Part shown: positions 57,611-64,000 of the stretch, in pieces
How the letters are laid out: the number at the start of each line of letters is the position of its first letter
Position numbering within the stretch: the first letter of the stretch is position 1
Origin: Candidatus Dormiibacterota bacterium
GTDB lineage: Bacteria; Vulcanimicrobiota; Vulcanimicrobiia; Vulcanimicrobiales; Vulcanimicrobiaceae
Assembly (NCBI GenBank): GCA_035532835.1
Contig: DATKQG010000053.1
Location: 1 to 64,000, forward strand
Length of the DNA stretch: 64,000 nt
Direction of reading: 5' to 3'
Program-made: the position numbers and the translations under genes
Notes under the pieces: generated by a model
What the model was told of the DNA's origin: nothing
The model's database searches: none
Seen by the model: only the letters and a program-made list of their open reading frames with translations

Positions 57611-58735
57611 CTAGGGGACGCGGCGACTCGCCCATCGCATCAACGGCCGCTCGAAGAGATAGGTGATGAGTGCGGCGAGCGCGATGCTGACCGCGAACGC
57701 TACGAGCGTGTACTGCCAACCCCAGCCGATGTTTCCGCGCGGGTCGCCGATGTATGGCGGCACGTGAAGGCGCAGCAGCTCGCGTGCGACGATCTGGTGA
57801 TAGAGATAGAGATTGTACGAGACGAATGCCAGAAAGCGCAGGGGCGCGTTTGCGAAGATGCGTGCAAACGCCGGCGGACTCCAGAGCAATCCTAACGCGA
57901 TCATGCCGAAGACGATCCCGAAGAGCGGCCGCCAATCGATCTGCCACACGAACGGCCACTGGTCGGCCGCACGATTGCCGTAGAGGTTCGCGAGCAGCGC
58001 CGCCAGAAGCGCGAAGCCGGCCAACGATACGACGGGCCAAAGCGCCGAACGCCGGCCGCTCCGCTGCGCTTTCGGATAGCGCACGAAGGCCCACGCCCCG
58101 AGCATCCCGCAGGCAAAGATATCGAGATAACCGGGGAGATTTTCTTCAAGCAACTCGAAGGACGTGTGCAAGCAGCAGCGTGCCGCCAGCGTGCGCCACG
58201 CAAGCGAGAGCGCGATCATCGCGCCGGCCGTCAGAAAGGGTCGTCGAGAGAAGCACCACCACACGATTGGGAAAATGCAGTAAAACTCGACTTCGACCGC
58301 AAGCGTCCACAACACGCCGTTGATCGACCCGTACGTCTGCTGCCACCAGGTATGGACGAACAGCAGATGCGCGATCACGTCGCGCCAGACGTGTCCGTCC
58401 CCTTGGGTCTGCGCGTAGCCGATGGCGTAGGCTATGGCGATCGACAGAGCATACGACGGAACGATTTTCGCGAATCGCCGATATGCAAAATGTCCCCAAG
58501 TTGGGCGCGGCGTACCGAGCAAGCGCGACCGCACGAACGGATATGCGATCACGAAGCCGCTCAAAAAAAAGAAGAGATGAACGCCGATAAAGCCCGTTTC
58601 GGGAACGAACTCGAGCCACGGAAAGGGCGCGGGCAGCCACGATATCTCCCAAACGTGGTACCACAGCACCAGCAGAACCGCGATCCCGCGCAGCCCATCC
58701 AGCACATCGAGACGCCGCTCCGCTTGCCCGGTCAC
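57611..58735 (-). CDS. Acyltransferase family 3 membrane protein
   Basis: A 374-residue, ten-helix membrane acyltransferase of the OafA/NodX type, which transfers acetyl or other acyl groups to sugars of surface polysaccharides. The N-terminal RLDVLDGLRGIAVLLVLWYHV carries the D-G-L-R-G and catalytic His, and the FFFLSGFVIAYPFVRSR segment holds the F-F-x-x-S-G-F motif (quoted in part). GTG start at 58735. It lies just upstream of the pilin-like genes and could share their transcript; a shared role in surface structures is plausible but unproven. Confidence 0.9.
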   Translation of the reverse strand: MTGQAERRLDVLDGLRGIAVLLVLWYHVWEISWLPAPFPWLEFVPETGFIGVHLFFFLSGFVIAYPFVRSRLLGTPRPTWGHFAYRRFAKIVPSYALSIAIAYAIGYAQTQGDGHVWRDVIAHLLFVHTWWQQTYGSINGVLWTLAVEVEFYCIFPIVWWCFSRRPFLTAGAMIALSLAWRTLAARCCLHTSFELLEENLPGYLDIFACGMLGAWAFVRYPKAQRSGRRSALWPVVSLAGFALLAALLANLYGNRAADQWPFVWQIDWRPLFGIVFGMIALGLLWSPPAFARIFANAPLRFLAFVSYNLYLYHQIVARELLRLHVPPYIGDPRGNIGWGWQYTLVAFAVSIALAALITYLFERPLMRWASRRVP

Positions 58736-58790
58736 CGCCGCTTCATGCGCAGCCCCCGGCCCGATACCCTGCCGAGATTGTATTACGTGC

Positions 58791-58817
58791 TTGACACAAA
58801 CCGCACGTTTGTATTAG
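58791..58817 (+). promoter_or_regulatory. Promoter with embedded palindromic operator for membrane protein/GntR operon
   Basis: A perfect -35 TTGACA (58791-58796) and -10-like TATTAG (58812-58817) are 15 bases apart. The spacer is filled by the palindrome ACAAAC-N5-GTTTGT (58796-58812). A protein bound there would block RNA polymerase. The GntR/YtrA-type regulator encoded as the second gene of the operon is the likely binder. Confidence 0.6.
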
Positions 58818-58857
58818 CCTATCGGTACAAAAGAGGGGCGACTGAAAGGATAGGATC

Positions 58858-59622
58858 GTGACGGCATTTGAGCGGGATTTTATGTCCGTATTTCTGTTGA
58901 TCTTCGGTGCGGGATTGCTATTCCTGAAGCCCGTCTTGGGCTCGCGCGCCAGCTGGATGGGGATCAGGGTTGCGGCGATCGATGCCGATCGGCTTCGGCG
59001 TGCGATAGACGCGCGTAAGATTGCTGAAGGGCCGGGCGTTCCGAACGGGAGATACGCGGGAATCTGGTTTCTGCTTCTCGCTCCGGCAACGTATTTCACG
59101 GCGCTTCCCCCGGCCGTTGCGTATGCGCTCGCGGTACTTGGTTTAGCAACGAGCATGGCTATCGAATTCGTAGGTTTGCGCCGTGCCTATCGAAAGCGCG
59201 TCGCAAGTCTGCGCGTCCGTTCGCCGTGGTCACTTCCTCCATTGTTGATGGCAGCCATGTATGTGGCGGCTGCCTCCCCCCTGGCATATGTCATTCGAGC
59301 GCAGGATGCGCTCGCCGCCGTGCTGGTTTCGGCTAGTGCCGCGGTCATGCTCGCGCTTGCATCCCGCGTTGCATCTCTGCCTCCGCTTTTGATCGGCGAC
59401 GATGTCGCAGTCGAGGAGGCGCTGGACGAGCATATTCGCACCGCACGCGCGGCGGGGTTGATCTTGCTTGCCGGAGCCACCCTCTACGTATTTGCAAGCT
59501 TTACGGGGATTGGTGCCGAGCCGCTTCATCTGAGCATCTTTGCGATCGAATTGATTGCCTGGGCCGGTTCTTCCGTCTGGCTGTTTAGAACGATGCGGCG
59601 GCCAATGAAGTTGCGAGCATAG
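58858..59622 (+). CDS. Multi-pass membrane protein, partner of YtrA-type regulator
   Basis: A 254-residue protein with about six hydrophobic helices (FLLIFGAGLLFLKPVLG, GIWFLLLAPATYFTALPPA, LPPLLMAAMYVAAASPLAYV). The layout recalls DUF1648/SdpI-type proteins that accompany YtrA-type regulators in other bacteria, but no motif proves it. GTG start with GAAAGGATAGGA upstream. The regulator gene begins 6 bases after the stop, so the two form an operon behind a promoter with a built-in operator. A role in envelope stress or self-resistance is possible by analogy only. Confidence 0.65.
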   Translation: MTAFERDFMSVFLLIFGAGLLFLKPVLGSRASWMGIRVAAIDADRLRRAIDARKIAEGPGVPNGRYAGIWFLLLAPATYFTALPPAVAYALAVLGLATSMAIEFVGLRRAYRKRVASLRVRSPWSLPPLLMAAMYVAAASPLAYVIRAQDALAAVLVSASAAVMLALASRVASLPPLLIGDDVAVEEALDEHIRTARAAGLILLAGATLYVFASFTGIGAEPLHLSIFAIELIAWAGSSVWLFRTMRRPMKLRA

Positions 59623-59628
59623 ACGGGG

Positions 59629-60003
59629 ATGCAGTTAGCGATCGCGCTCGACCTCCAACGTGATACGCCCCCGTTCGCGCAGATCGTCGAGCAAATCCAA
59701 TCGTACATTGAGGGTGGAGCGTTGGCGCCGAATGCGCCGTTACCGACGGTACGCCAATTGGCGCGCGATCTGGGGATCGCCCCGAACACGGTTGCGCGAG
59801 CGTATTTGGAACTGCAGGACGCCGGCTGGCTCGTCGGCGACGGGCGACGGGGAACGCGCGTAGCATCGCGCGTTCCCCTACAGGCCCGGCGTTCGCGCGC
59901 GCATGCGTTGGGCGAAGCCGTCAGTCGTTTTGTCGATGGAATGCGCCGCCGCGGCTATACGCTGCCGGAGATCGCCGCAGCCGTCGGAGATATCCGCGAG
60001 TGA
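59629..60003 (+). CDS. GntR family transcriptional regulator, YtrA subfamily
   Basis: A 124-residue regulator. The N-terminal winged helix (PPFAQIVEQIQSYIEGGAL, LPTVRQLARDLGIAPNTVARAYLEL) is the GntR fold, and the C-terminal 40 residues form only two short helices, as in the YtrA subfamily that lacks a ligand-binding domain. These usually repress their own operon of membrane or ABC proteins. The palindrome in the operon promoter 800 bases upstream is a probable binding site. The ATG is close behind ACGGGG. Confidence 0.9.
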   Translation: MQLAIALDLQRDTPPFAQIVEQIQSYIEGGALAPNAPLPTVRQLARDLGIAPNTVARAYLELQDAGWLVGDGRRGTRVASRVPLQARRSRAHALGEAVSRFVDGMRRRGYTLPEIAAAVGDIRE

Positions 60004-60077
60004 ACGGCTATAGCAAGCACGTCGTCCCACTTGGCCGACGGTCGGGCCGGCAGCCCCGCGCGGATCGCCGATCGCCC

Positions 60078-60108
60078 TTGACAACGCTGGCCCTCCTGTG
60101 GTTGCATA
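60078..60108 (+). promoter_or_regulatory. Promoter of the aromatic amino acid operon leader
   Basis: A perfect -35 TTGACA (60078-60083) and a -10-like TGCATA (60103-60108), 19 bases apart (or TTGCAT with 18). Transcription would begin near 60115, one to three bases before the leader-peptide ATG, which lacks any ribosome-binding site. The leader peptide is therefore probably translated from a leaderless mRNA. Confidence 0.55.
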
Positions 60109-60116
60109 GCCGAAAC

Positions 60117-60194
60117 ATGCAGCACGCACCCGTTTACGCCTACGCATATTATTTTAGCCGTCCCGTCGGGCCGGTTGGATTGGCGTTTGCATAG
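60117..60194 (+). CDS. Attenuator leader peptide, Tyr/Phe-rich
   Basis: A 25-residue open reading frame, ATG to TAG, whose codons 7-13 read Y-A-Y-A-Y-Y-F. Four Tyr and one Phe in seven residues, placed upstream of genes for phenylalanine/tyrosine synthesis and followed by alternative hairpins, is the hallmark of a transcription attenuator such as pheL or trpL. Ribosomes would stall here when charged tRNA-Tyr or tRNA-Phe is scarce. A further Phe codon lies near the end. It has no Shine-Dalgarno sequence. Confidence 0.8.
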   Translation: MQHAPVYAYAYYFSRPVGPVGLAFA

Positions 60195-60269
60195 CGAGTA
60201 GCGAGTGAGTCAGATAGCGATGCGAGCCCCTGCCGACCGGCGGGGGCTCGTTGCATTTCCGGGGCAACG
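60158..60269 (+). promoter_or_regulatory. Attenuator: competing antiterminator and terminator hairpins
   Basis: Segment 2, GCCGGTTGG (60170-60178), can pair over 9 bases (one G-U) with segment 3, CCGACCGGC (60233-60241). Segment 3 is also part of the terminator stem CGAGCCCC-T-GCC / GGC-G-GGGGCTCG (60223-60250, loop GACC). Segment 2 can alternatively fold with CC..CCC at 60158-60164, which a ribosome stalled on the Tyr/Phe codons would cover, allowing 2:3 pairing and read-through. The U-run after the stem is weak (TTGCATTT). A further hairpin CGTTGC/GCAACG (60249-60269) could compete. Confidence 0.75.
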
Positions 60270-60284
60270 GCGAGGAGAACACGA

Positions 60285-62057
60285 GTGATCAAAGCGGTAT
60301 TTCAAGGGGTCGATGGGGCATACTCGCAACTGGCGCTGGCGCACGCGCTGCGCGAACGAGGTATCGAGGCGCAGATCGAAGGCGTGGCCAGCTATCGCCA
60401 TCTAGCGACCGCCGTTGCAAGCGGGCGTGCAGACGCCGGCATCTTGCCGCTGGAAAATGCGATCGTCGGTACGGTGCGCGAGGGCTACGATTTACTCGCG
60501 GAGTACGCGCTTGCGCCGTTGGCCGAAGTCCTGTGGCGCACGGACCACCGTCTGCTCGGCGTGCCGGGCGCGACCCTAAGAGACGTGCGCGAAGTGCTGG
60601 CGCACCCGTTGGTTATCGCGGAATGCGGGACGTTTCTCGCGACGTTGCCGCACGCGCGTGCTATTCCGTGCGAAGATACGGGCGTCGCGGCTCGAGAGGT
60701 TGCGCGGGGCGGCAATCCGGCCATCACCTCGCTCGGCCCGTCAGCGGCGGCGGCGTTCTATCATCTCGATGAGTTGGCCGAACACTGCGCCGACGACCCC
60801 GGAACGTACTCGCGATTTGTCGTCTTCGGCACCGATGCGGCGGGTGCGTGGAATGATGGCCTCGCGCGGCCACGGAAGACGTCGCTGATTCTCTCGGTCG
60901 CGAATCGCGCCGGAACGCTGGCAAACACGTTGACGCAGCTCGCGCAGCGCGGCGTCAACGTGAGTAAGCTCGAATCGAAGCCACGCCTGGGTCACAGCGA
61001 CGAGCACACGTTCTACATCGACGTCGAAGGCGATCTCCACGACGAGGTGCTACGAGAAGCCGTAGCGCGCATGCAACGCGAGGCGAAGACGCTCGTGGCC
61101 CTGGGGAGTTACGACGCGCACGTGGGCGCGCCGGCTGGAGCGAATGCGGCGCCGGCACCGATATCGTCGCCTCGCGTCGAAACTCAGCCGCGATTGGAAC
61201 CGCAACCGCAGCCGCCGAGCGCTGCGAATTCCGCGTTCCCGCTGGTGGCACGGGCATCGCGGCCCGGCGGCTCGATCGTGCGCGTAGGCGCGGTGTCGAT
61301 CGGGGATGGGAGTTTCACCATCGTCGGTGGGCCGTGTTCAGTGGAATCGCGCGAGCAGATTCTCCTTACCGCGCGCGGCGTCGTGGAGCGCGGCGCCGTG
61401 ATGCTGCGCGGCGGCGCGTTCAAACCCCGTACGAGCCCGTACGCGTTCCAAGGCCTGGGCTGGGACGGCGTCGATCTGCTGGCCGAAGCCGGGCGCGCGA
61501 CCGGAATGCCGACGGTTAGTGAAGTGATGACGATCGACCAGGTCGAGCGCATGGCCCAACGCATCGACATGCTGCAAATCGGCGCCCGCAACATGCAAAA
61601 CTTCGATCTGCTCAAAGCGGTTGGCCGCGCGGGCCGGCCCGTGTTACTCAAACGCGGCCTCTCCGCAACGATCGACGAACTGCTGGCCGCGGCCGAATAC
61701 ATTCTCTCCGAAGGAAATCCGAACGTCGTGCTTTGCGAACGCGGCATTCGCACGTTCGAACCGTCGACCCGCAATACGCTCGATCTCTCGGCGGTGCCCG
61801 TCCTGCGCGAACGGACGCACTTGCCGATCTTCGTCGATCCCAGCCACGGCGTGGGCGTGCGGCGCTGGGTTCGCCCGCTCTCGCGCGCCGCGAAGGCCGT
61901 CGGAGCCGACGGATTGCTGATCGAAGTGCACTCCAATCCGCCCGAAGCCAAGAGCGATAAAGAGCAAGCCTTGACGTTCGATGACTTCGCGCAGATCGTG
62001 CACGATCTCGAACGCATACCGCTCGAACACCCGGCGTTGGCGGTAACGCCGCGATGA
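60285..62057 (+). CDS. Prephenate dehydratase-ACT-DAHP synthase fusion protein
   Basis: A 590-residue fusion. Residues 1-185 are a prephenate dehydratase-like domain (FQGVDGAYSQLA, LPLENAIVGTV, ITSLGPSAAAAFYHL), but the catalytic T-R-F motif reads S-R-F (TYSRF, about 174-178). Residues 195-275 form an ACT domain that binds Phe or Tyr (ANRAGTLANTLTQLAQRGVNV, ESKP). After a Pro/Ala linker, residues 326-590 are a type I-beta DAHP synthase (GGPCSVES, RGGAFKPRTSPYAFQGLG, KRGLSATIDE, DPSHGVG), the first enzyme of the shikimate pathway. The GTG start follows GAGGAG. The dehydratase-ACT part may serve as the feedback sensor for DAHP synthase. Overlaps aroH by 4 bases. Confidence 0.93.
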   Translation: MIKAVFQGVDGAYSQLALAHALRERGIEAQIEGVASYRHLATAVASGRADAGILPLENAIVGTVREGYDLLAEYALAPLAEVLWRTDHRLLGVPGATLRDVREVLAHPLVIAECGTFLATLPHARAIPCEDTGVAAREVARGGNPAITSLGPSAAAAFYHLDELAEHCADDPGTYSRFVVFGTDAAGAWNDGLARPRKTSLILSVANRAGTLANTLTQLAQRGVNVSKLESKPRLGHSDEHTFYIDVEGDLHDEVLREAVARMQREAKTLVALGSYDAHVGAPAGANAAPAPISSPRVETQPRLEPQPQPPSAANSAFPLVARASRPGGSIVRVGAVSIGDGSFTIVGGPCSVESREQILLTARGVVERGAVMLRGGAFKPRTSPYAFQGLGWDGVDLLAEAGRATGMPTVSEVMTIDQVERMAQRIDMLQIGARNMQNFDLLKAVGRAGRPVLLKRGLSATIDELLAAAEYILSEGNPNVVLCERGIRTFEPSTRNTLDLSAVPVLRERTHLPIFVDPSHGVGVRRWVRPLSRAAKAVGADGLLIEVHSNPPEAKSDKEQALTFDDFAQIVHDLERIPLEHPALAVTPR

Positions 62058-62425
62058 AGATGCGCGGCATTCGCGGTGCGATTACGGTCGAGTGCGACGA
62101 CGCGCAGGCGATCGTCGCCGCGACCAAACGGCTGTTGTGCGCGATGGTGGAGCGCAATCGCGTGGGGATCGACGACATCGCATCGGTGCTGTTCAGCCTC
62201 ACGCCCGATCTGCATGCGGCCTTTCCGGCGCTCGGGGCGCGCGAAATGGGGTGGGTGCACGTGCCGATGCTGCACTTTACGGAGATCGACGTGCCGGGTT
62301 CGCTCGGGCAATGCGTGCGCGTGCTCATGCACGTGAACACGGCGATCGGGCAAGAAGCCTTGGACCACGTCTATCTCGACGGCGCCGTCGCGCTCCGTCC
62401 GGATTTAGCGAAAGACGCGCGATGA
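62054..62425 (+). CDS. aroH: Monofunctional chorismate mutase, AroH class
   Basis: A 123-residue chorismate mutase that rearranges chorismate to prephenate. The class is that of Bacillus AroH: MRGIRGAITVECDDAQAI at the N-terminus, VGIDDIASVLFSLTPDLHAAFPA and REMGWVHVPMLHFTEIDVPGSL (in parts), with the key Arg, Glu and Cys/Arg region QCVRVLMHVNT. It supplies prephenate to the dehydrogenase and dehydratase encoded next. Both junctions are 4-base ATGA overlaps, so the proteins are made in step. Confidence 0.95.
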   Translation: MKMRGIRGAITVECDDAQAIVAATKRLLCAMVERNRVGIDDIASVLFSLTPDLHAAFPALGAREMGWVHVPMLHFTEIDVPGSLGQCVRVLMHVNTAIGQEALDHVYLDGAVALRPDLAKDAR

Positions 62426-63222
62426 TCGAGCCGGGGACGCTCGGCATCATCGGCGTCGGGTCGATCGGCGGTTCGATTGCATTAGCCGCGCAACGGCGCG
62501 GCTGGTCGACGATCGGGTACGATCGCGACCCGCTCGCGAGCGATTGCGCCGGGCCCCAAGACGTGTACGACCGAGCGGATGTTCTGGTGATCGCTACTCA
62601 CCTCGAATCCAGCCTGCAGTTGTTGCGGGAACTCGCCGTAACGCCACCCGCGCGCGCCCGCTTGATCCTCGACGTTGCCTCGGTAAAAGTCCCCATCCTC
62701 GATGCGGCAGCGGGGCTGTCGCATTTTGTCGCCTCCCATCCGATGGCCGGAACGGAGCGTAGCGGACGTGCCGCCGCGAGCGCCGAGCTCTTCGACGGAC
62801 GCATGTGGGCATACGTCCCGGGCCGCGACGGTGCGTTGAACGAACGCGCTCGCACCTTTATCGAGCAGTTGGGCGCGCGCCCGTTTGCCGTCGATCCGTA
62901 CGTGCACGACCGAGTGGTCGCCCTCACCTCGCACGTGCCGCAAGTGGTGGCGAGCGCGGTTGCCGCGCACGTACGCGAACTTGCGCAGAGCGCGGGCGAG
63001 GGAGTCGTCGACGCGCTCTGCGGCCCAGCGGCACGCGAATTGCTGCGGCTAAGCCGCTCCGGCGCGGACATGTGGCGCGATATTCTACATGCCAACGCCG
63101 CAGAGGTCGCGCCACAGCTGCGAGCCATCGCCGAGGAACTGCTCGCGATCGTTCGCGCGCTTGAAGACGGCGATGACGGCGCGATCGAACGCGTCTTTTC
63201 GCGCGGTAATCCCAGGCGATGA
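62422..63222 (+). CDS. tyrA: Prephenate dehydrogenase
   Basis: A 266-residue NAD(P)-dependent enzyme for the first committed step to tyrosine (prephenate to 4-hydroxyphenylpyruvate, or arogenate to tyrosine). GIIGVGSIGGSIALAAQRRG is the cofactor site, LDVASVKVPIL holds the usual S-V-K, SHPMAGTERSG is the family signature with the catalytic His, and VVALTSHVPQVVASAV has the second conserved His. It lacks any ACT domain, so feedback must act elsewhere. The ATG at 62422 is in ATGA overlap with aroH; the frame is open upstream only as a shadow of aroH. Confidence 0.93.
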   Translation: MIEPGTLGIIGVGSIGGSIALAAQRRGWSTIGYDRDPLASDCAGPQDVYDRADVLVIATHLESSLQLLRELAVTPPARARLILDVASVKVPILDAAAGLSHFVASHPMAGTERSGRAAASAELFDGRMWAYVPGRDGALNERARTFIEQLGARPFAVDPYVHDRVVALTSHVPQVVASAVAAHVRELAQSAGEGVVDALCGPAARELLRLSRSGADMWRDILHANAAEVAPQLRAIAEELLAIVRALEDGDDGAIERVFSRGNPRR

Positions 63223-64000
63223 AACTCACGGCCGGATTTCAAGGCGAAGCCGGGGCGTTTAGCGAGGAGGCGGCGCGGCAGCTGCTTGGGGATGTCGAGA
63301 CGCGCGGTTACGAGAGTTTCGACGAGTTGCTCGCGGCGGTCGATCGCAAGGAGGTCGAGCTGGGTCTCTTGCCTTGCGAGAACAGCATTCACGGCGCGAT
63401 CGCTCGCTCGTACGATCTCTTGCTGGCCTATCCGCGCGTGCGCATCGTGGATGAGACGACGCACCAAATCGTGCAGTCGCTGATTGGAACGCACGATGCG
63501 ACGCTCGAGGGAATCACATCGATTCGCTCCCATCCCGTGGCGATCGAACAGTGCCGGGGATTTCTTGCAAAGCATCCGCACGTGGAAATTCGAGCGGCCA
63601 CCGATACGGCCGGTTCCGTGAGGGAAATCGCGAGGTTGGGCGACCCGACGCAGGCGGCGATCGGCCCGGCGGCAAGCGCCGCGCGGTACGGAGGGCGGAT
63701 TCTCGTGGATTCGGTTGCGGACGAAGCTGAAAATTACACGCGATTCTTCGTTATCCAGCGAGACGGGCCGGCGCGGCGCAGCCTGGGACGGACCTGCGTC
63801 GCAACCGTGCTCGTACACCGGCCGGGCAGCCTGCACCGGGCGTTAGGAGAGATCGAGAGCCGGGGCTTCAACCTTCGTTCGCTCATCACGCGCCCGCGGC
63901 GCGGTAACCCGTTCGAATACGTGTTTTACCTGGAATTCGATTGCCCGTCCTACGAGGAGGCTCGCGAACTCGCCGCGCGGCTAGCCCCGAAATCGCAGAT
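63219..64000 (+). CDS. pheA: Prephenate dehydratase with ACT domain (3-prime end cut by window)
   Basis: At least 260 residues are visible and the frame runs off the end of the window without a stop. The dehydratase domain has FQGEAGAFSEEAA, LPCENSIHGAI, the DTAGSVREIA region and an intact catalytic NYTRF (about 176-180). The ACT domain begins near 196 (VLVHRPGSLHRALGEIESRGFNL) with I-T-R-P in place of E-S-R-P. It converts prephenate to phenylpyruvate for phenylalanine. The ATG overlaps the dehydrogenase stop (ATGA). It is the second dehydratase domain of the operon and, unlike the first, keeps the canonical catalytic Thr. Confidence 0.93.
   Translation, partial: MKLTAGFQGEAGAFSEEAARQLLGDVETRGYESFDELLAAVDRKEVELGLLPCENSIHGAIARSYDLLLAYPRVRIVDETTHQIVQSLIGTHDATLEGITSIRSHPVAIEQCRGFLAKHPHVEIRAATDTAGSVREIARLGDPTQAAIGPAASAARYGGRILVDSVADEAENYTRFFVIQRDGPARRSLGRTCVATVLVHRPGSLHRALGEIESRGFNLRSLITRPRRGNPFEYVFYLEFDCPSYEEARELAARLAPKSQ

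Follow-up and report, generated by a model that had tools for sequence, protein, structure and literature searches.

A predicted leaderless leader-peptide attenuator with Tyr and Phe control codons ahead of a phenylalanine/tyrosine operon in Candidatus Eremiobacterota

The window analysed here is a stretch of 64,000 nucleotides of contig C53, from a Candidatus Eremiobacterota genome (G000; 2.89 Mb in 120 contigs). Close to its end we observed an operon whose genes, as judged by Pfam, cover phenylalanine and tyrosine synthesis together with the entry into the pathway. A reading made from the DNA alone (the sequence-only reading) had listed genes for DAHP synthase, chorismate mutase, prephenate dehydrogenase and prephenate dehydratase here. 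The Pfam matches agree, the DAHP synthase being fused to a prephenate dehydratase. The fusion gene starts with a GTG at 60285, with GAGGAG 5' of it. On its 3' side the operon is followed on the contig by an open reading frame without a Pfam match and then by rpsL, rpsG and fusA, and a small gene for a GntR-type regulator (59629-60003) lies upstream of the attenuator. The features of the locus are as follows.

60078-60083, + strand: -35 hexamer TTGACA (TTGAC in 28/28 orthologous leaders)
60099-60107, + strand: extended -10, TGG-TTGCAT, spacer 18 (TGn plus a T..-AT-like hexamer in 28/28 leaders)
60113-60117, + strand: predicted transcription start, placed from the -10 position (5' UTR of 0-4 nt)
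60117-60194, + strand: leader frame MQHAPVYAYAYYFSRPVGPVGLAFA plus TAG, 25 codons (aromatic-rich counterparts in 14 genera)
60127-60166, + strand: segment 1, with Tyr-Ala-Tyr codons inside, pairing with segment 2 (duplex -27.3 kcal/mol; 1:2 co-evolves)
60135-60155, + strand: control codons Y7, Y9, Y11, Y12 and F13 (counterparts in relatives)
60170-60192, + strand: segment 2, from pairing analysis; 2a GCCGGTTGG at 60170-60178, 2b GG..GTTTGCAT at 60182-60192
60220-60241, + strand: segment 3; 3b ATGCGAGCCC at 60220-60229, 3a CCGACCGGC at 60233-60241 (2:3 co-evolves)
60223-60250, + strand: terminator stem 3:4, 12 bp, loop GACC (hairpin in 28/28 leaders; compensatory changes)
60251-60259, + strand: imperfect U-tract TTGCATTTC (a better U run in most other genera)
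60272-60277, + strand: Shine-Dalgarno GAGGAG of the first structural gene
60285-62057, + strand: fused prephenate dehydratase-ACT-DAHP synthase (Pfam PDT 6.5e-36, ACT 2.8e-06, DAHP_synth_1 4.2e-76)
62054-62425, + strand: chorismate mutase, AroH type (CM_1 4.9e-43; 4-nt overlap with the fusion gene)
62422-63222, + strand: prephenate dehydrogenase TyrA (PDH_N 1.5e-17, PDH_C 4.8e-13; 4-nt overlap)
63219-64000, running on to 64016 of the contig, + strand: second prephenate dehydratase (PDT 3.4e-51; 4-nt overlap)

The operon has two prephenate dehydratases, the one fused to DAHP synthase (60285-62057) with SRF and the other (63219-64000) with TRF. As the fused copy has SRF instead of TRF, its prephenate dehydratase part may be a regulatory domain.

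The TTGACA hexamer that had been proposed as a promoter was indeed found at 60078-60083. Across all 28 orthologous leaders, the end of this hexamer lies 31-34 nt from the leader start codon (L121 being taken with its corrected start). The end of the extended -10 lies 7-10 nt from it, again in 28/28. A clear Shine-Dalgarno before the leader start was present in none of the 28, and two GGAG/AGGA-like stretches overlap the flank of the -10. This is the arrangement expected of a leaderless mRNA. If transcription starts some 7 nt beyond the -10, the 5' UTR would measure 0-4 nt, and it is the fixed distances of TTGAC and the extended -10 to the start codon that led us to call these leaders leaderless. 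The same fixed spacing backs the leaderless leader peptide that had been suggested, its 5' end being placed from the promoter. When we compared L001 and L002 (two species of one genus), the promoter-leader unit was common to both and the DNA upstream of it was unrelated. The pattern TTGAC-N14-17-TGNTNNNAT-N7-10-ATG matched the 2.89-Mb genome only once, at the attenuator site, and the reversed-pattern control gave 0 matches. A generic consensus scan of the leader region returned no promoter and no terminator, which is explained by the extended but weak -10 (TGG-TTGCAT) and by the poor U-tract of the tail TTGCATTT. In one relative, TANNNT was seen 5-9 nt before the start of 7/75 genes, the figure elsewhere being about 0.1 per position, so leaderless genes seem to be normal in this family.

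The 25-codon frame with Y-A-Y-A-Y-Y-F was correctly placed, from the ATG at 60117-60119 to the TAG at 60192-60194. Over the 28 leaders (starts excluded) we counted 87 Tyr, 52 Phe and 24 Trp codons, i.e. 13.7%, 8.2% and 3.8%. Together these make up 25.7%, so these short frames are enriched in codons for the end products. Both Tyr codons (TAC 47, TAT 40) and both Phe codons (TTT 36, TTC 16) are used, and hence the amino acids, rather than just the bases, seem to be under conservation. The mix varies: L016 has Phe and Trp without Tyr, and L003 has Tyr and Trp without Phe. The mainly-Tyr signal proposed earlier therefore holds in that Tyr codons are the commonest, but it is better termed aromatic (Tyr>Phe>Trp), with one genus Tyr-free and another Phe-free.

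We further looked at relatives of the locus. The fusion gene is present in 39/99 genomes of the family, and upstream of its orthologs we collected 28 non-redundant leaders from 14 genera. All have a common order: TTGAC, extended -10, ATG/GTG, a frame of 17-27 codons rich in Tyr/Phe/Trp, a GC-rich terminator and then the gene. In a fifteenth genus (G003) a contig end cuts the leader region, and the terminator is present. A scan for TTGAC followed by an aromatic-rich small frame and a terminator gave 4 matches in 848 kb strand-bases, and 4/4 were the attenuator or its orthologs. Genus g18 (L009, L114, L115, L118, L122) alone keeps the fusion gene without a leader. In most of this genus the fusion gene has another conserved stretch, AAGAGGGCATRMCCT..CGTATWAA, ahead of it.

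The RNA of the leader can be drawn in three alternative pairings. The 1:2 hairpin joins 60127-60166 with 60167-60200 (-27.3 kcal/mol). The antiterminator 2:3 is a two-part helix of 19 pairs in total. One part is GCCGGTTGG (60170-60178) with CCGACCGGC (60233-60241), 9 bp including one G-U, and the other is GTTTGCAT (60185-60192) with ATGCGAGC (60220-60227), extended by GG (60182-60183) with CC (60228-60229). The 9-bp antiterminator of the sequence-only reading is thus present as a pairing but too short. Its 12-bp terminator-type stem was correct, with arms at 60223-60234 and 60239-60250. The hairpin of this intrinsic terminator stands before the structural genes in 28/28 leaders, with the U-tract imperfect in the window's genus. 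In the leader frame, the control codons take nt 19-39, segment 2 begins at nt 54 and the stop codon is at nt 76-78, a spacing that fits the classical attenuation geometry. The stop codon (60192-60194) abuts 2b, so that a ribosome finishing the peptide could mask segment 2; in several other leaders the stop falls inside or just after 2a. Folding of the window's leader as a single sequence was no better than that of shuffles (z -0.70).

The pairings were assessed across genera by an alignment-free genus-swap test, in which each genus's segments were paired with one another and the summed duplex energy was set against that of 20,000 permutations among the 14 genera. The 2:3 pairing gave an energy sum of -440 against -380 (sd 13.6), with 1/20,000 permutations as good. 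For 1:2 the sum was -410 against -343 (sd 14.0) and for 3:4 it was -380 against -301 (sd 11.0), with 0/20,000 as good in each case. The control pairings gave no signal, 2,851/20,000 permutations being as good for 1:3 and 13,518/20,000 for 2:4. The outcome was largely stable under other region limits and representatives, and 1:4 was likewise null; the 1:2 signal was weaker when the 11-genus subset was run with one tight setting of the limits (50 to 588 of 4,000 permutations as good). Column-wise covariation on a MAFFT alignment also picked out the terminator (11 cells with a double change; 0/500 shuffles reached the score). For the antiterminator the same alignment gave just 3 doubly changed pairs, which does not clearly exceed the shuffles. 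This is due to the indels and the sequence conservation, and the swap test was used in place of column-wise counts for this helix. The leaders therefore support mutually exclusive 1:2, 2:3 and 3:4 pairings. The sequence-only reading had staked itself on conservation of the Tyr/Phe codons and pairings in relatives. Aromatic leaders and the three co-evolving pairings were found in 14 genera, in line with the trp/phe attenuation logic that it had put forward.

Since 1:2, 2:3 and 3:4 co-evolve and 1:3, 2:4 and 1:4 do not, the locus is very probably a classical attenuator tuned to aromatic amino acids. We put the probability at about 0.9 that it is a ribosome-mediated transcription attenuator whose leader peptide is read from the leaderless 5' end of its mRNA. 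The transcript would begin within a few nt of the ATG of this peptide, where a ribosome would start translating at once. When charged tRNA-Tyr or tRNA-Phe is short, it would stall at codons 7-13 and cover segment 1; a stall at codons 11-13 in particular should hide segment 1 and leave segment 2 free for segment 3. The two-part 2:3 antiterminator could then form, and polymerase would continue into the operon for DAHP synthase, chorismate mutase, TyrA and PheA. When the peptide is completed, the ribosome at the stop codon would cover the 2b arm, 3:4 would form and transcription would end. Without translation, 1:2 would form and leave segment 3 for segment 4, so that the terminator should win. 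The stalling, the termination, the transcript start and Tyr/Phe charging as the signal are all steps that we infer from sequence. The gene content of the operon fits such a control. Points against it are the poor U-tract in this genus, the loss of the leader in g18, the weak column-wise signal of the antiterminator, the weaker 1:2 signal in the one variant, and the reported lack of effect of Tyr limitation on aroR of Corynebacterium glutamicum (PMC11802643).

We also considered that the same attenuator might sit on a longer transcript, with an upstream transcription start and an ordinary initiation site. The start has been placed by inference, and TTGCAT is a weak -10 that the generic scan missed, both of which leave room for this reading. 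However, TTGAC lies 31-34 nt from the start codon in every leader though the upstream DNA differs completely, even between L001 and L002; the extended -10 is conserved and a clear Shine-Dalgarno is lacking before the leader start. Comparable leaders in several Clostridia do carry a Shine-Dalgarno, with a -10 about 30 nt upstream. We consider a longer transcript improbable. It is very improbable, in our estimate, that the terminator is constitutive or controlled by a protein or RNA, with the small frame incidental or encoding a trans-acting small protein and no codon-specific stalling. Of the structures at the locus the terminator has the strongest support, and trans-acting leader peptides exist (peTrpL, PMC7298713). 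But the aromatic codons are retained while other residues and lengths vary, three mutually exclusive pairings co-evolve, and the region holds no T-box or other relevant Rfam element.

A refinement of the attenuator reading, rather than an alternative to it, is that a single amino acid, either Tyr or Phe, mainly controls and the other aromatic codons are passengers. Tyr codons dominate, and the Corynebacterium glutamicum aroR attenuator is reported to respond to Phe and not to Tyr limitation (PMC11802643). The mix of codons, however, shifts between genera, down to the Tyr-free L016 and the Phe-free L003, and control by a single amino acid seems to us possible but doubtful.

Several elements of this attenuator are already known: the attenuation principle, leaderless leader peptides and a Phe-Tyr-Phe attenuator of DAHP synthase. 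The last is C. glutamicum aroR (Neshat et al. 2014), which controls aroF (PMC11802643, PMC4046766); its attenuation is described as Phe-dependent, and Tyr limitation is reported to have no effect (PMC11802643). Going by these descriptions, the resemblance is a functional one, an aromatic-residue leader peptide before DAHP synthase. The Eremiobacterota leaders have 4-10 aromatic codons against three in aroR, and they occur in another phylum and gene context. With aroR as an example (PMC11802643), a single mainly-Tyr attenuator for the whole operon is not without precedent, and neither is a leaderless control peptide. The Sinorhizobium meliloti trpL transcript starts directly with the ATG of its leader peptide and is subject to attenuation (PMC7298713), as we propose here; it differs in its Trp codons, its trpE(G) target and its phylum. 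Streptomyces lividans has leaderless leader peptides (trpL, leuL, ilvL and others), some followed by terminators (PMC8079986). These serve other amino acids, and aroF or pheA is absent from those listed there. The enterobacterial pheA (pheL) and trp attenuators share the 1:2, 2:3, 3:4 logic, Phe or Trp codons and, for pheL, the pheA target. Their leaders follow a Shine-Dalgarno, and the 5' UTR is longer. They respond to one amino acid each, and Rfam families of that kind are unmatched by the Eremiobacterota leader.

What is new, on our reading of the sequences, is a putative leaderless and Tyr-codon-dominated attenuator heading a complete Phe/Tyr operon that includes the pathway entry, in another phylum than before. 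A very small gene at the start of the mRNA, with many Tyr/Phe codons, appears to act as a shortage sensor that decides on the reading of the Tyr/Phe synthesis genes. In this phylum, where gene regulation has hardly been studied, attenuation of this type is the likely control on the making of aromatic amino acids. As the first ribosome must load on a bare 5' end, the locus would offer a natural test of how leaderless initiation and transcription are coupled, and the 28 leaders form a comparative data set on how codon content tunes a multi-amino-acid attenuator. One carrier, G008, is a single contig of 3,508,363 bases (69.3% G+C in a 240-kb sample) with the leader MAVTSWFYRYFYAECAALRRGRPLP. It is probably the cultured strain Vulcanimicrobium alpinum WC8-2, which has a genome of 3.50 Mbp with 68.4% G+C (PMC9758169). 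If so, the prediction may be testable in pure culture.

Outside the phylum, we observed a Tyr/Phe-rich leader with a terminator within 800 nt upstream of 18/71 DAHP synthase loci; elsewhere, the same-strand background was 1 match in 522 kb. Leaders of this sort were noted in many phyla (L042, L062, L063, L064, L067-L070, L077, L083, L091, L093, L096, L099, L104, L106, L109). Several have a Shine-Dalgarno and an ordinary 5' UTR, and L042 (Anaerolineae), L109 (Gemmatimonadaceae) and L077 (Clostridiales) look leaderless. The Rfam Trp/Phe leader, T-box and riboswitch families gave nothing relevant in 58000-62000 at E<=5, and no family was matched at gathering score by L001 and 15 of the loci outside the phylum. 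We found no description of this leaderless form, or of such breadth of DAHP synthase leader attenuation, in the open-access literature, outside which the main comparative attenuation surveys lie. The evidence tips slightly towards Tyr/Phe(/Trp) attenuation of DAHP synthase being a widespread, so far unclassified control of aromatic entry in many phyla. Its leaderless form would occur in Eremiobacterota, with candidates in Chloroflexota and Gemmatimonadota, and its Tyr/Phe/Trp mix would be re-tuned by genus and gene neighbourhood.

Within the class, leaderless aromatic leaders were also seen ahead of DAHP synthase genes that stand alone, both in other genera and in a second family (L244, L247, L272), with runs of Trp codons in 2/3. 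The leader is MKISSARYSYWWYL.. in G025, with a trpE gene at a distance of about 2 kb, MTTFTFSWWW.. in G033, and MHQAAWASYYRYGW.. in G042, the member of the other family.

Leaders for other amino acids were also seen. In G030, contig C21 (L234) has a His leader, MSLAQAHVHHHHHHGFCRIACDDCLT (MSLAQAHVHHHHHHGFC..), with TTGACA 34 nt before the ATG, a terminator and a hisG-like gene downstream. The search through HisG gave this single leader since hisG is mostly internal to operons, and a His-run pattern search yielded mostly coding-sequence noise apart from it. The LeuA dimerisation domain was found in only 2/16 and HisG in 10/16 family genomes, for which auxotrophies or divergent enzymes are possible explanations. 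No leader was seen in the sequence covered next to the LeuA genes, which ended short of the operon start. In G000 itself, contig C35 (L162, L242) has a Trp attenuator before trpE, with the leader MIVRLAAWYRWHWLLGVQR and the terminator GGCCGCCCG..CGGGCGGCC. Relatives of this trpE leader are present in four genomes (G001, G035, G028 and G002).
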